Shown here: positions 3,736-47,852 of the stretch, piece after piece
Numbering within the stretch: the first letter of the stretch is position 1
Layout of the letters: the number at the start of each line of letters is the position of its first letter
Source of the DNA: Verrucomicrobiales bacterium
GTDB taxonomy: Bacteria; Verrucomicrobiota; Verrucomicrobiia; Limisphaerales; CANJXF01
NCBI GenBank assembly: GCA_947478865.1
Contig: CANJXF010000031.1
Location: 1-47,852 of the forward strand
Direction: 5' to 3'
DNA length: 47,852 bases
Translations under genes and position numbers: made by a program
Notes under the pieces: generated by a model
The model's input: only the letters and a program-made list of their open reading frames with translations
The model's database searches: none
Told to the model about the DNA's origin: nothing

Positions 3736-4317
3736 TCAGCTTCCGGGTTTCGAGCAGTCGGCTTTTGAGGATTTATCGTCGGAGTCGTTAGCCCGCTTGT
3801 AAGTATCCATTGGTTTACCAGAAGGTTTCCAATCCGGCCTCAACCGGACGTCCTCATGTCCCGCGAGCTGCCCTGGTGCCGAGGCGCTCGTCATGTCAGT
3901 TTCTTTGCGTATCTCCCACCAACACTGGCCCCGGTGATTATGCTGGTGGTCCACGACGAATTTGCCACGCTTCAACAGCGGTCCGGTCCAGCCCATGCAA
4001 TGGTCGCAGTAATCACGATACTGTTCCAGCCCGTTGCGGATCAGAAAACCCTTGGACGGGCACTCGTGCATGTCGATGCGAAACACTTTGTCGGTTGCGG
4101 TGGTGAAATATTCCGCCGCCTCTTCGGCGAGGGTGTGCCCCCAGTATTCCTGCATGCCTTTGAAGCCCTTCTTCAGGATCAATTCGCTGGCATGGGTCTG
4201 CGCGTCCTGGTGGATGGCTTCGTCCCAGTAGGCGCGAACGAGCGAATCGCCGCCCCGCTGGCGCAGCCACTCGAAGGTCCACTCGTAATGGCCACAGAAA
4301 TCGTAAACTCCTAGCAT
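3736..4317 (-). CDS. Cys-rich protein, possibly of the L-2-amino-thiazoline-4-carboxylate hydrolase-like group (second of a pair)
   Basis: The start is set at the ATG at 4317 (MLGVYDFCGHYEW), which overlaps the stop of the upstream gene by 7 bases; this gives 193 residues. The core contains HECPSKGFL, then YCDHCMGW and HNHRGQCWWEI: a CP motif, a CxxC pair and a final GxC. The partner gene upstream has the same order (VCPAIKHL, FCEHC, NGTCRQTF), so the two look like diverged paralogues. The pattern reminds me of ATC-hydrolase-like proteins, but I cannot confirm that. The last 50 residues are hydrophilic (DDKSSKADCSKPGS). Probably cytoplasmic; function unknown. Confidence 0.7.
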   Translation of the reverse strand: MLGVYDFCGHYEWTFEWLRQRGGDSLVRAYWDEAIHQDAQTHASELILKKGFKGMQEYWGHTLAEEAAEYFTTATDKVFRIDMHECPSKGFLIRNGLEQYRDYCDHCMGWTGPLLKRGKFVVDHQHNHRGQCWWEIRKETDMTSASAPGQLAGHEDVRLRPDWKPSGKPMDTYKRANDSDDKSSKADCSKPGS

Positions 4318-4844
4318 GACGCCTCCTTGATCTTCGCCAGATTCTGGTCCGGAAGGTTTGAGTCCCGTCGGCAGAACGTCTGCCGACAAGTGCCGTTGCC
4401 TCCCTCGATCCGGACGGTTAACCCTGCGGGCACCGCCGTCGCCTCGCCCACGAAGTAACAGTGCTCACAGAACCGGGGGATGATCTCCCGCCCATGCTCG
4501 CGCAGATGCTTGATGGCCGGACAGACGGTTACGTCCAGAATTACGCAGTCGCTGGATAGCTTCACCTCAACCTGTGCTCCCGGCTCGGCTTTGAAAAATG
4601 CTTCCCAATACGCCGCCACTCCCGGCAGCCCTCGCTTGGTCCACGCCGCTGAGACGGGGGCAAAATAGCGTGTTCCCAGATCGGCCCAATATTGCCGGAG
4701 CCCCTCCGCGCCGTATTTGTTTAGGATGAAACGGAAAGTGGCGTTGATTGCAAGATAGAAGTCGGGCGCGCCCACGGGCTTGCTGTCCCGATATGGCAGA
4801 ATTTGCTCTTTCAAGTCATTCATATCCGGCGCTCCCTCGTTCAT
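4311..4844 (-). CDS. Cys-rich protein, possibly of the L-2-amino-thiazoline-4-carboxylate hydrolase-like group (first of a pair)
   Basis: The ATG at 4844 is chosen because GGAGG lies six bases upstream (complement of 4851-4855); the frame is open further upstream without a better site. It gives 177 residues. Features are a helical N-terminal half (FRFILNKYGAEGLRQYWADLG, VAAYWEAFF) and a C-terminal Cys part with VTVCPAIKHLREHG, RFCEHCYFVGEA and GGNGTCRQTF. The same CP/CxxC/GxC order occurs in the next gene, with which it overlaps by 7 bases. Such tandem pairs may form a heterodimer, which is an inference. They follow transport and glycosidase genes on the same strand. Confidence 0.7.
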   Translation of the reverse strand: MNEGAPDMNDLKEQILPYRDSKPVGAPDFYLAINATFRFILNKYGAEGLRQYWADLGTRYFAPVSAAWTKRGLPGVAAYWEAFFKAEPGAQVEVKLSSDCVILDVTVCPAIKHLREHGREIIPRFCEHCYFVGEATAVPAGLTVRIEGGNGTCRQTFCRRDSNLPDQNLAKIKEASC

Positions 4845-5043
4845 AGCCATCCTCCGCCAAAACTTTTTTACCCCCGTCAACTCCAGCAGACCCAAAAAGT
4901 TGGACTTCGAACCATTCAGACACGATGAGCGCTTGGTGGGGAAACTTGAATCGAGCACAAGGTGCGCATAACGAAATCGGCGATGCGAGAACCAGTCTGC
5001 GAGTCCTTAAACAATAACTCATAGGCGAAGCGTGATCTGTTTC

Positions 5044-5655
5044 TTACGGCAAACGCGAGGCCTCCCGCGGAGTAAACAGCTCAAATCCACCGTCAAATGT
5101 TTGCGCTGGCTGGAAATCCTTGCCTGTTTGAGAAGCAAACCGGGGCAGGATCGCAATTTGAATGATGTCATCCTGCAGCAGGCGTTTTAATCCAGGCTCG
5201 TAGGGAGAGACGACGATGATTTTGGCCTTGAAATCCTTAAAGCCACCCGGCCTCTGCTTGGGGCCGGTCGGGAATCCGACCACGGAAACTATAGCATCGG
5301 CGTTCTTCTGGTTTTCAACGGCGGCGAGAAACGCCTGGGGCCGGGCCAGACCGACTTTTTCCATCTCCACTTTTTCCATCGCCGCGACCGTGATCCCCGT
5401 TTTTTTGAGCGAATCCATAAAAACTTTCATTTCTATATCCAGATAGGGAATCGGAAAAGCGCCGAATTCCCGGTTGATAATGACGGCAATCTGTCCTTTG
5501 TTACCCAGTAGTTTTGCGGTCTCCTCCGCCATTTTTTTGCCCAGAGTGATGTAGGGCTGCCGATCCGGCTCCGGCATTCCTTTGAAGGTGGTGAAGTAAA
5601 TGGACGCCAGGGCAATGATCGTCAATGCCACGAGGATTATGGGTTTCTTTTTCAT
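5044..5655 (-). CDS. Membrane-anchored or secreted protein of unknown function
   Basis: A 203-residue protein. MKKKPIILVALTIIALASIYFTTF is a signal anchor. The rest is predicted periplasmic alpha/beta sequence: KKMAEETAKLLGNKGQIAVI (about 40-60), FMDSLKKTGITVAA, and DAIVSVVGFPTGP. The alternation of helices and hydrophobic strands resembles half of a periplasmic sugar-binding protein (Peripla_BP type), but it is too short for a full one. It lies downstream of a sodium symporter gene and a 55-residue gene on the same strand, so a role in sensing or uptake of the same substrate is possible. I do not recognise the family. Confidence 0.65.
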   Translation of the reverse strand: MKKKPIILVALTIIALASIYFTTFKGMPEPDRQPYITLGKKMAEETAKLLGNKGQIAVIINREFGAFPIPYLDIEMKVFMDSLKKTGITVAAMEKVEMEKVGLARPQAFLAAVENQKNADAIVSVVGFPTGPKQRPGGFKDFKAKIIVVSPYEPGLKRLLQDDIIQIAILPRFASQTGKDFQPAQTFDGGFELFTPREASRLP

Positions 5656-27056: not shown

Positions 27057-28577
27057 TCATTTACTCCTCGGTTTCTTATCCTTGTCAATCCGCTTGAGCA
27101 GCGACACCACGCTGTCACGGATCTTCGGTTCGGCGCCAATTTCCAGGTAGCTGGAGCGCGCGCGCCATGTCGTGTAGCCTCCGAGTTCAAACTGGTCTGG
27201 GGGCGGGAGGTATCCGTTGCAGCCGTTTGCGAGTTCAATCACCATCGTGAGCGAGAACGGACTTGCCTGTTTGATCGCCAGCCCGGTGCTGCCGTAGGTT
27301 TCGCAGGGCGTCGTGCCGATGGCGAAGTCGCCAATGCGCAACGCCTGAAGCTTGATCTCTTTCCTCGTCGGCCAATCGGCCATCTTCACCGTTTCGCGAG
27401 CGTAATTTTCCTCCCAGGTCCGGATCGGTCGATCGCCCACATTCTTTGCCAGATAATCGCGGGCCGCCGCCACGTCTTTGCGGGAGGGCCGGCGCACCTT
27501 GAATGCACGCTTTTGCTCGACCATCGCCAACGGCACCCACTCCTGGTAGCGCGCGGCCTTCAACGCCTCGAGTGCTGCATCGGCCACGGCGCGCGCGACC
27601 ATGAAACGATCATTCTTCCAATTGGGCTTGGTGAAATCCACGCAGTTGGCATCGCCGCTCGTGCCGTTGCTCATGAGTGCGACGAACGGCTTGCCTTCCT
27701 CCACACCGAGTTCTTTCGCCATGACGCGGCAGAACTCGCCGAAATAATCCGCCGACAATCCCGCCTCGGAAACGCCCGCGTAATGCGTTGAATAATTGGC
27801 GAGCAACCCCAGTGGCTTGCCGTCGGCGGTTTGCACGGAAAGCACTGTGACGGCGGTGTCCACCGGGCCGGTCTGGCGAATCTTGTTCGTGTTGCCGAAG
27901 CCGGGATTCATCATCGCGAGGTTCGTGGCCTGGCCGGTGAAAGCGACTGGCGGATTCTGCGCGGTACCCGGCTGCATGATCCAACGCCGGCAATGCACGA
28001 ACTGCGGACACTCGCCCTTGCCCCATCCCACCCGCGCCGGCACGCGATTGCGCCACGCCTCGATGATCGCCTGGGCAATGCGCGGAATCAGAAACTCCAC
28101 GTAATCCGGTTCCGCGTCGTTCCCGTGGCAACTGTAGGCCGCCGGCGCAGTGTGCGTGTGCGTCGAGGAAATTAACATCCTCTCGATCGGAATTCCGGTA
28201 ACGCGCCGCGCCGCCGCCTTTGCTGCGTCAATCGCTTCGCGGTCCACCATGCAACTGTCCACCACCGCAATTGCGACCTGCTTCCGGCCGTCATCCAGCA
28301 CCAGCGCGCGGACGTTGAGCGGATCGATGGCTTTGTTCGCAACCGTGATTACGAGATTGCCGGCGGTGCGAATCGGGAAGTTGGTCGGGGTGATGTCCAC
28401 CATCGCCGCGCCGGCGCGGAAATCGGCCGATGCTGCGTGGCCGGGTGGTGAAGCACTGATCATCGCGCCAACAATAAAAAGATAGGCCGCGAAATCCAAA
28501 CATCCCACGATCGTCCACTTCCTCGTTATCGGCCTCGCCTTCAACTTCGTTGGGGATTTCGAGGCGTCATGAAACAT
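27057..28577 (-). CDS. Secreted neutral/alkaline ceramidase-like protein (copy 1)
   Basis: 506 residues with a hydrophobic export segment at about 25-50 (IVGCLDFAAYLFIVGAMISA). The N-terminal ceramidase-type domain is shown by AAMVDITPTNFPIRTAG, the metal-site ISSTHTHTAPAAYSCHG (about 136-152) and LANYSTHYAGVSEAGLSADY (about 260-280). True neutral ceramidases cleave the N-acyl bond of ceramide with a zinc site. The Verrucomicrobia relatives are shorter, lack the C-terminal Ig-like domain and have no proven substrate. It lies 12 bases after the dehydrogenase/cytochrome gene, so both are probably one operon. Confidence 0.85.
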   Translation of the reverse strand: MFHDASKSPTKLKARPITRKWTIVGCLDFAAYLFIVGAMISASPPGHAASADFRAGAAMVDITPTNFPIRTAGNLVITVANKAIDPLNVRALVLDDGRKQVAIAVVDSCMVDREAIDAAKAAARRVTGIPIERMLISSTHTHTAPAAYSCHGNDAEPDYVEFLIPRIAQAIIEAWRNRVPARVGWGKGECPQFVHCRRWIMQPGTAQNPPVAFTGQATNLAMMNPGFGNTNKIRQTGPVDTAVTVLSVQTADGKPLGLLANYSTHYAGVSEAGLSADYFGEFCRVMAKELGVEEGKPFVALMSNGTSGDANCVDFTKPNWKNDRFMVARAVADAALEALKAARYQEWVPLAMVEQKRAFKVRRPSRKDVAAARDYLAKNVGDRPIRTWEENYARETVKMADWPTRKEIKLQALRIGDFAIGTTPCETYGSTGLAIKQASPFSLTMVIELANGCNGYLPPPDQFELGGYTTWRARSSYLEIGAEPKIRDSVVSLLKRIDKDKKPRSK

Positions 28578-45470: not shown

Positions 45471-46154
45471 TCACGGCACTTGAGTCATGGTCTTAGTTCG
45501 CAAGTAAAGCACATGCCCATCGACGTAAAGCACGTTGCGGCCAGTGTTATGCACGGGCTTGGGAGTCGGAGAACCCTCGTAGTTCCACGCATCGACGTCC
45601 TCCATGGCCCAAACCGTCGAAAGCGGTCCAAATTGGGCTTGGACCTGCGAAAGCGTGAGCGGTTTCTTGTAGTAGGGCGGTTTGGGATCGTAGACATAGC
45701 CGAATACGGGATAATAGCCGTTGGAAACTGTCCCCCAATTTTGAACGTATGAACCGCGGTTATTGAGATTCTTATAGTCCTGCGCCCAGGTGTTGGCCAT
45801 GCACATAAAGACTTTTTCAAAATTATTCGAAGCCGCAGTGATCAGATACGGCGCGAGATAAATCGCCATCGTATACGGGTTCTCCGACCCAACAACTCCA
45901 ACCGTGCTCTGCAACCCCCAGACCGGCCCGGGCAGCGTGTCTCGGTTATCATTGGCGTACATCGTGATCGCCAACCCGATCTGCCGAAAGTTGTTCAGAC
46001 ATTGTATGCTCAATGCCTTTTGTTTCGCTCTAGCCAGCGCGGGGAGCAATAGCCCAGCCAGAATGGCAATAATCGCGATGACCACCAGCAACTCAATCAG
46101 CGTAAAGGCCGCCCCCCTCAGCGCCGGCTTGAAATTTTTCCAAAGCGTTTTCAT
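45471..46154 (-). CDS. Pseudopilin-like protein with H-X9-DG motif
   Basis: 227 residues. The leader [15 protein letters not shown] precedes [19 protein letters not shown], so the residue before Phe is Ala. Then [20 protein letters not shown] and [13 protein letters not shown]. The C-terminal [20 protein letters not shown] is a full H-X9-DG. The gene has the best promoter in the window, with the shared inverted repeat between -35 and -10. It is on the minus strand upstream of the 600-residue secreted protein gene. Confidence 0.9.
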
Positions 46155-46203
46155 ACCTTAAAAATTCATTGAATAGCGTTAAGTCAGCGGTGGAATTTCA
46201 ATC

Positions 46204-46233
46204 ATTCTAAATACTAGTAGTACTAGCGGTCAA
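46204..46233 (-). promoter_or_regulatory. Promoter with inverted repeat (site e) in its spacer
   Basis: On the minus strand TTGACC (46233-46228) and TAGAAT (46209-46204) are 18 bases apart. The spacer contains CTAGTACTACTAG (46226-46214), whose five-base arms CTAGT and ACTAG are perfect. The -35, one base, repeat order is the same as at 19809 and 19450. The gene starts 50 bases downstream. Confidence 0.6.
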
Positions 46234-46562
46234 CAGAATTGTCTTAAAAAATCTTTATATCAAATTTGACACAAATTAAGTGCTGCCGGCACTGGGAATC
46301 GGACGAAGGGTCTGCGGATATGCTGACTCGCATTCATGGTTTTCATCCAGAACATATGCGGGTGTCTCGGTCAAGGTGCTTACGCTGAAACACTGAAGCA
46401 ATTAACCGCGGAGCAGAGAGCCCCAATCGTAGAAACCGATCCGGCAACGGCAGCGTCACAAAGCGAATTCTGGTGGAAACTAGATGCTGAGAGACAACGA
46501 TTGCTTTCAGTTCACCATTTTGCAGGCAAGTCAGTCTGTGTCCGATTGCCTAAAAAAAGAAA
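46234..46562. other. Intergenic stretch
   Basis: AT-rich and then mixed sequence with a plus-strand open frame of 82 codons (46336-46584) that has no family features and runs into the tRNA fragment. I do not support a gene here. Confidence 0.4.
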
Positions 46563-46586
46563 TGGTCGGAGCGGTGAGATTTGAAC
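46563..46586 (-). other. tRNA 3'-end fragment (CCA, acceptor strand, T-loop), probably from tRNA-Pro
   Basis: The minus strand reads GTTCAAATCTCAC and then CGCTCCGACCA: T-loop TTCAAAT, 3' half of the T-stem, seven-base acceptor strand CGCTCCG, discriminator A and CCA. A CGGAGCG partner and the rest of the cloverleaf are absent at higher coordinates, and the 5' half of the T-stem does not pair. It is therefore only the 3' end. tRNA 3' ends are common attachment sites of integrases, so this may be an att remnant. Confidence 0.55.
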
Positions 46587-46721
46587 ATGGTCGGGCATGT
46601 TTTCAAAAAGCCCTTAAATGGCATAGTAATCAATGTTTTCAACGGTTTTATGGCTTTTGTCTTTAAAATTCAAATGAAAGAAAAAGCAACTAAACGCAAA
46701 AAAGTTGTTAAGAATTGTTAA
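46587..46721. other. AT-rich non-coding stretch
   Basis: It lies between the tRNA fragment and the left end of the IS5-type element. No gene or hairpin is recognised. Confidence 0.4.
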
Positions 46722-47588
46722 GAGCCTGTTTGGAAACTCAATTCTTAATTCATCGATGAAGCATGAGGCGGCACATGCAGATAGACGAAGGATTCGGCGA
46801 CTTGGGCTTTGCGCTCGTAATCGCGGCTCAAACGCCCGGAGCGGCCCAGCCAGCCGAAGGTGCGTTCGACCACCCAGCGCCGTGGCAACACGGCAAAGCC
46901 GCGGGCGGTGTCGCTGCGGCGGACGATCTCCAGCGCGCGCCGGCTCACCCGGCCCACCCAATGCACCAGTTGGCCGGCGTAGCCTCCGTCGGCCCACAGG
47001 TGGCGCAACCGGCCATATACGGCAAACGCTTTGGTCAGCAGTTGGCGGGCGCCGTCGCGATCCTGGATATTGGCGGGCAACACGCTGACCATCAGAAGCA
47101 GACCCAGTGTGTCCACCAAAATGTGTCGCTTGCACCCGTTGATCTTCTTGCCTGCGTCGTAGCCGCACTCCCCGCAGGTCTCGCTGCCCTTGACGCTTTA
47201 ACTGTCCACAATACCGGCCGTGGGCTGGCGTTTGCGCCCTTCCAAAAATCGGATGTGGTCGCGCAGATGCGAGTGGAGGCCTTCGATCCGTTGCGTCCGC
47301 TCCCATTGGCGAAAGTAGTCGTAAACCGTCTGCCGGGGCGGCAGGTCTTTGGGCAGGTTGCGCCACTGGCAGCCCGTGCGCAGCAAATAGAAAATGGCGT
47401 TGAGCAAATCCCGATAGGAGTGTTTGCGGGGCCGCCCGGTGGCCGCAGGCTTGGGGAAACAATAGCCAATCAAACTCCATACCATGTCCGTCAGGTCAGT
47501 GATCTAACGCATCCCCAGCTGAAACGGAATCCCTCACAAACGTATAATATCGTTAACGGAAAATATTCACCACTTTCCAAACAGACAC
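46722..47588 (-). mobile_element. IS5-family insertion sequence, 867 bp
   Basis: The ends are GAGCCTGTTTGGAAA (46722-46736) and, inverted, GTGTCTGTTTGGAAA (47588-47574), 13 of 15 matching. The element length fits IS5-family groups with 850-900 bp. A target-site duplication is not evident. It contains the disrupted transposase gene. Confidence 0.75.
46745..47485 (-). pseudogene. IS5-family transposase with a premature stop codon
   Basis: The frame from ATG 47485 encodes a DUF4096-type N-terminus (FPKPAATGRPRKHSYRDLLN, AIFYLLRTGCQWRNLPKDLP, TVYDYFRQW) up to QPTAGIVDS. A TAA (47200-47198) interrupts it where relatives have Gln. The same frame goes on with SVKGSETCGECGYDAGKKIN, GCKRHILVDTLGLLL, ADGGYAGQLVHW (second Asp) and FAVLPRRWVVERTFGWLGRS (Glu region) to 46745. 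A single CAA-to-TAA change explains it, since no frameshift is needed. A programmed -1 frameshift is not indicated. The catalytic DDE residues are otherwise present. Confidence 0.85.
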
Positions 47589-47688
47589 TGAATGGTCAGG
47601 AGTCATAGGAGCGCAGGTGAAGATGAAAACACGCATGCGGTCGATCCCCGACCCCCTTTCTGACCGCTCTGCGGCATCAGGACAGCCT

Positions 47689-47850
47689 TCAGTTACTGCT
47701 GGGCTGGCCAAAATCCACCTGCACTTCCTGTCCCGCAGCGCATTCCATCCGCCGAAAGGGCAAAGGCATCCTGGAGGCGAGCCGACGCACAAAACGCTTC
47801 ACCGACTGATAACTGCCAGTGAACTGCTCTTCCGTGATGAGATCCTGATA
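47689..47850 (-). mobile_element. istA: IS21-type istA transposase fragment (runs off the right edge)
   Basis: The minus frame reads YQDLITEEQFTGSYQSVKRF, VRRLASRMPLPFRRMECAAG and QEVQVDFGQ, then PSSN and a stop. This matches IstA around its first catalytic Asp (QVDFG). Real IstA continues for some 250 residues more, so this copy is truncated just after the Asp. The N-terminal part lies beyond the window. Bases 47589-47688 carry nothing I recognise. Confidence 0.75.
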
Positions 47851-47852
47851 AA

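Follow-up and report, generated by a model that had tools for sequence, protein, structure and literature searches.

The question raised by this locus is whether a tRNA 3' end that stands alone near the end of a contig marks one border of an integrated element, and what became of the other border. Partial tRNA copies left by insertions of this kind are described as widespread in PMC9897764, which places the island PYG1 of Pyrococcus yayanosii between a partial and a complete tRNA-Gln. The window, by which we mean the whole stretch of 47,852 nucleotides that was analysed, is the entire contig C31. It belongs to a draft genome with 114 contigs, a total length of 4,400,143 bases, and a completeness of 97.3%. 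This genome is the only member of its genus and family in the genome collection compared. To the right of the tRNA tail the contig continues for 1,266 bases and stops beyond an insertion sequence. At a probability of roughly 80%, we consider that an integrative element once sat in the tRNA-Pro(GGG) gene and that the tail is its far-end attachment site, whose partner end has been lost or moved.

Identity of the tRNA tail

The tail occupies positions 46563-46586 on the minus strand, runs from G53 to the CCA end, and reads GTTCAAATCTCACCGCTCCGACCA. Read from 46586 to 46563, it comprises a G, which we take to be position 53 by the tRNA numbering convention, the T-loop, the 3' half of the T-stem (CTCAC), the 3' strand of the acceptor stem (CGCTCCG), and ACCA. 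ARAGORN detected no tRNA and Rfam gave no match in the whole window, and the window therefore holds no cloverleaf. Neither program found remains of a D-arm or an anticodon arm 5' of the T-loop, where the DNA instead resembles the ends of integrated elements. The junction showed no foldable structure (z -0.48), and no second copy of the tail was present inside the window as another border.

A chance origin of the 24-mer was ruled out with two controls. Shuffled versions of the window gave an expectation of 0.00 matches, and the reversed pattern was found in none of 320 genomes of the order, compared with 248 of 320 for the pattern itself at up to two mismatches. The exact 24-mer occurred in nine public genome records. 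In eight of these it forms the end of a called tRNA-Pro, one of them a Pedosphaera tRNA-Pro(TGG), and in the ninth the record is cut by the contig start. When the 44 distinct tRNAs of the own genome were compared, the best match was tRNA-Pro(GGG) with 22 of 24 positions, followed by tRNA-Pro(TGG), tRNA-Pro(CGG), and one tRNA-Met with 19 of 24 each. Because of the eight public records and the 22/24 match, the 24-mer is assigned as a tRNA-Pro tail that is not letter for letter that of the own tRNA-Pro(GGG). The exact sequence was found in no other genome of the order among the matches listed and on no contig of the viral collection. The original prediction of a lone tRNA-Pro 3' end without a cloverleaf was borne out by the T-loop, half T-stem, acceptor strand, and CCA, by both negative tRNA searches, and by the match to tRNA-Pro(GGG).

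The own tRNA-Pro genes and the search for a partner end

The genome carries one gene each for tRNA-Pro(GGG), tRNA-Pro(TGG), and tRNA-Pro(CGG). At up to three mismatches, the only other copy of the 24-mer in the genome is the tail of the intact tRNA-Pro(GGG) gene on contig C80, again at 22/24. Both differences are acceptor bases, and identity runs six bases past the CCA: TTTCTT at 46557-46562 (minus strand) is the same as the bases directly after the intact gene. This agreement adds little, because tRNA-Thr(CGT) is also followed by TTTCTT. Beyond TTTCTT the left flank of the tail showed no continuity with the DNA after the C80 tRNA; a direct junction of C80 to the left flank was considered and rejected on the poor local alignment past this point. 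Contig C80 continues for 15.5 kb past its tRNA, with reading frames that look chromosomal (named by inspection and not by family search). When positions 46560-47852 were searched against the own genome, nothing besides the C80 tail was found.

According to the original prediction, an intact tRNA with identical 3' 24 bases and an adjacent integrase gene would bound a genomic island together with the tail. The C80 gene was the closest tRNA obtained, and no integrase lies beside it or beside either of the other two tRNA-Pro genes. No integrase-family (PF00589) matches were detected on contigs C31, C80, C9, and C68; the nine matches in the genome are on C6, C69, C3, C24, C44, C15, C50, C93, and C21. 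An island between two copies is thus not supported: there is no identical partner and no integrase, and the contig ends to the right, so that a bounded island on that side cannot be shown. Since no intact tail is identical and the near-identical one has no integrase beside it, we describe the feature as an orphan scar rather than a bounded island. The integrase on C93 was considered as the lost end and rejected, as it has no adjacent tRNA in 12 kb and only 31% identity to the integrase of the related genome G241. In a control on orphan tails of other own tRNAs, 40 of 65 candidates were scored, and the window copy was not among them.

Neighborhood of the tail in the window

All features flanking the tail lie on the minus strand. 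On its right is an element-side end of about 132-134 nt (46587-46720), whose 80 nt nearest the tail resemble element ends in genomes G241, G240, and G219. Within it, the 10-bp direct repeat TTGAAAACAT is found at 46633-46642 (copy one) and 46597-46606 (copy two); these repeats are possible integrase arm sites. Reading frames and family matches define an IS5-type insertion sequence at 46719-47591, with approximate ends placed at imperfect inverted repeats. Its transposase is carried on two reading frames separated by an in-frame stop and matches DUF4096 and DDE_Tnp_1 in Pfam. Both halves also match NF033580, each under the whole-protein cut-off because the stop splits the transposase. No clear target duplication was seen flanking the insertion sequence. 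A further reading frame at 47711-47852, cut by the contig end and first labelled IS21, encodes 47 amino acids with no Pfam or NCBIfam match. Of the two insertion sequence fragments that the tail had been said to border, the IS5-type one was verified and the IS21 label was not. To the left, on the proposed chromosome side, the nearest clear gene is prepilin-like (45471-46154; N_methyl and DUF1559 domains).

The inner part of the tail is flanked by the eight bases ATGGTCGG, present at 46562-46569 and again at 46587-46594. The element side therefore also ends in a short piece that resembles a tRNA-Pro end (CCGACCAT). At the equivalent place, G219 has CCCGACC.

The likeness of the element side to ends in relatives was assessed by several alignments. 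In a blast search of 46160-46725 over 320 genomes, most matches consisted of the tRNA tail alone, and E-values are not decisive because such tail-only matches score as well as the relevant ones. Two matches extended 72 nt into the element side, on contig C45 of G241 (73% over 99 nt) and contig C64 of G240 (72% over 99 nt). With 80-nt alignments anchored at the junction and shuffles that preserve base content only, z values were 6.6 to 7.0 for G241, 6.2 to 6.3 for G240, and 6.2 for G219; 0 of 1000 shuffles reached the score in each case. Anchored controls gave z values of -1.3 to 3.6 for 16 ends of other kinds and -0.4 to 3.4 for seven other loci, with 2.8 for G235. Free local alignment of the element side was weaker (z 5.6 for G241, 3.2 for G240, and 1.5 for G219; controls reached 4.0). 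In genome G201, a 27-nt piece of this DNA lies ahead of an ordinary reading frame, with no tRNA tail beside it. Judged from these alignments, the likeness to the G241, G240, and G219 ends appears real and of moderate strength. Two of the similar ends, those of G241 and G219, are paired with an intact tRNA-Pro(GGG).

Orphan tails and islands in related genomes

Tails without their tRNA occur in many genomes of the order and are of two lengths, starting either in the anticodon loop or, like the window copy, at the T-loop only. The places of integration within tRNA genes are reportedly the subject of Williams 2002. Two T-loop-only tail patterns were found in 13 of 320 and 11 of 320 genomes; these sets overlap, and the own genome is in both. 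Nine same-contig pairs of an intact tRNA-Pro and an orphan tail were obtained from the stretches fetched, a sample that is not a census. The two members of a pair always share a strand and are separated by 1.8 to 60.7 kb, and in all nine pairs their last 11 tRNA bases are identical. A tyrosine integrase follows the intact tRNA directly in six of the nine (G040, G054, G088, G072, and G241 twice), and none was found beside the tRNA in the remaining three (G016, G060, and G219). Together with the resemblance of the element side to three element ends, these paired copies and their integrases sustain the earlier proposal that the tail is a far-end copy of the kind left by integrative elements.

One of these pairs is on contig C45 of G241. 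There, tRNA-Pro(GGG) at 88863-88940 (minus strand) has an integrase directly downstream at 87498-88802 (minus strand), and a T-loop-only copy lies at 28184 on the same strand, 60,679 bases from the tRNA. The 60.7-kb interval holds type I restriction genes, a GmrSD-type gene, and a BT4734-like domain. This island shares with the window the T-loop-only tail and a similar element-side end; it has both ends and the integrase, whereas only one end is seen in the window. The G219 tail and its partner tRNA-Pro(GGG) span 15.9 kb, an interval with regulator and RND efflux genes and no integrase, and in G240 the tail is unpaired on its contig. Around the tRNA-Pro genes of relatives, the only neighbors shared were one generic prepilin match (locus L119) and generic matches to C80.

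In 10 of the 13 T-loop-only genomes (loci L103-L110, L112, and L113; eight families), a conserved end of about 110 nt with TTAG or similar before the T-loop was recognized by eye. Pairs of this type with an integrase are present in G072 (38.6 kb apart) and on contig C11 of G241 (19.9 kb apart). The window end showed no likeness to TTAG-type T-loop ends or to anticodon-loop ends (controls, z -1.3 to 3.6). Just past the far-end tail of a 10.5-kb island in G088, a second integrase starts (L086, positions 1-443); this arrangement points to a tandem of two elements at a single tRNA-Pro. Several contigs of relatives, at L085 (contig C515 of G013), L089, and L090 (G084), stop no more than a few dozen bases from a tRNA-Pro tail. 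Contig ends near these tails are expected if the assembler breaks at such repeated sequences.

Origin of the orphan tail

It was observed directly that the tail copy exists, how it is oriented, that it is unique in the genome, and that its element side resembles ends in relatives. From this we infer an insertion together with its direction, its age, and the fate of its other end. An element with a copy of the tRNA-Pro tail would have crossed over in the T-loop/T-stem of tRNA-Pro(GGG) through a tyrosine recombinase. At the integrase end, the tRNA gene would have been made whole by the copy that the element brought in, and the original tail would have been pushed to the opposite border, 46563-46586. 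On this view the DNA from 46587 rightward belongs to the element and that on the left to the chromosome. Since then this tail may have drifted by two bases from the present tRNA, the IS5-type sequence would have inserted into the adjoining element DNA, and the end with the integrase would have been lost, either deleted or carried elsewhere. Several findings count against this reading: none of the own tRNA-Pro genes has an integrase beside it, the tail has two acceptor mismatches where nine of nine pairs in relatives agree over the last 11 bases, the left flank lacks continuity with the DNA after the C80 tRNA, the tRNA-Pro genes of relatives share only generic neighbors, free local alignment of the element side is weaker, and the 27-nt piece in G201 stands without a tRNA tail. 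An integrase-less relic has precedent, since three of the nine pairs lack the integrase. The two changed acceptor bases would be compatible with drift, either of the free relic alone or of both copies starting from CGCCCCG, an acceptor form common in the order.

The mismatches could also mean that the tail came with the element as its attachment sequence, either into a secondary site outside tRNA genes or from a host whose tRNA-Pro differs, so that the left flank never lay beside a tRNA gene. We regard this as unlikely. It would account for an acceptor strand, CGCTCCG, that differs from the own tRNA-Pro(GGG) but has exact matches among the tRNA-Pro genes of other lineages, the Pedosphaera tRNA-Pro(TGG) being one, and for a left flank that is not continuous with the DNA downstream of the C80 gene. 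However, all nine pairs in relatives match the host tRNA tail at the last 11 bases, the six bases past the CCA are the same as on C80, and a free relic can acquire two substitutions without a foreign source. Very improbable, in our estimate, is simple decay of a tRNA-Pro gene by deletion of its 5' two-thirds, with no integrative element involved. A lone tail with two acceptor changes could look like this, but the T-loop-only element ends of relatives are likewise broken at G53, the DNA beyond G53 resembles such ends, and the genome retains one gene for each of the three tRNA-Pro species. A similarly slight probability is given to C31 being a foreign contig misplaced in this genome, with the partner tRNA in another organism. 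The exact 24-mer is indeed on no other own contig and in no other genome of the order among the matches listed. The tetranucleotide correlation of the three contig thirds with pooled own stretches (0.92 to 0.96) nevertheless falls within the range of own stretches (0.90 to 0.97), a weak test because relatives overlap the own range.

The proposed far-end site of an element once in tRNA-Pro(GGG) can be compared with known systems. The far-end sites of tRNA-targeted islands such as PYG1, as described in PMC9897764, likewise carry an orphan partial tRNA copy without the rest of the gene. The window differs from islands of that type in that no intact partner with an adjacent integrase was found, and in the two mismatches between its copy and the own tRNA. 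Prophage 04 of Pseudomonas fluorescens Pf-5, described in PMC2647930 as a defective prophage remnant in tRNA-Pro, is also a decayed element at a tRNA-Pro gene; there, in contrast to the window, the integrase gene still adjoins the tRNA, and the bacterium is unrelated. Among literature titles, none was found on a Verrucomicrobia tRNA-Pro genomic island or integrase; absence from print is not claimed.

Tail scars like the window copy are an ordinary, well-known kind of feature, and in annotation such tails should be treated as scars and not as genes. Here the tail would delimit foreign DNA on one side, in an uncultured lineage for which the collection compared contains no second member of the family. 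Across the order, tRNA-Pro is a repeated entry point: elements with different ends have used two places within it, the anticodon loop and the T-loop. More speculatively, the window, G219, G240, and G241 (four genomes in two families) might share an undescribed element lineage of the order whose entry point is the T-loop of tRNA-Pro(GGG) and whose far-end arm has been kept; in the window the scar would have outlived its island and then been moved off its tRNA gene by chromosome rearrangement. We hold this extended scenario to be doubtful; if it is true, the pair of scar and tRNA could date a chromosome rearrangement.

Two further layouts were noted among the integrase genes of the own genome. 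On contig C15 (L149, 2972-4667), a tyrosine integrase starts about 65 nt after the 3' end of a tmRNA (tag ANEELALAA), so the genome also has an integrase at tmRNA. Orphan 5' halves of tRNAs are less usual than 3' tails. On contig C50 (L147, approximately 4100-5356), a 5' half of tRNA-Thr(TGT) of about 42 nt lies directly before an integrase gene, and the intact tRNA-Thr(TGT) of the same genome is located on contig C34.
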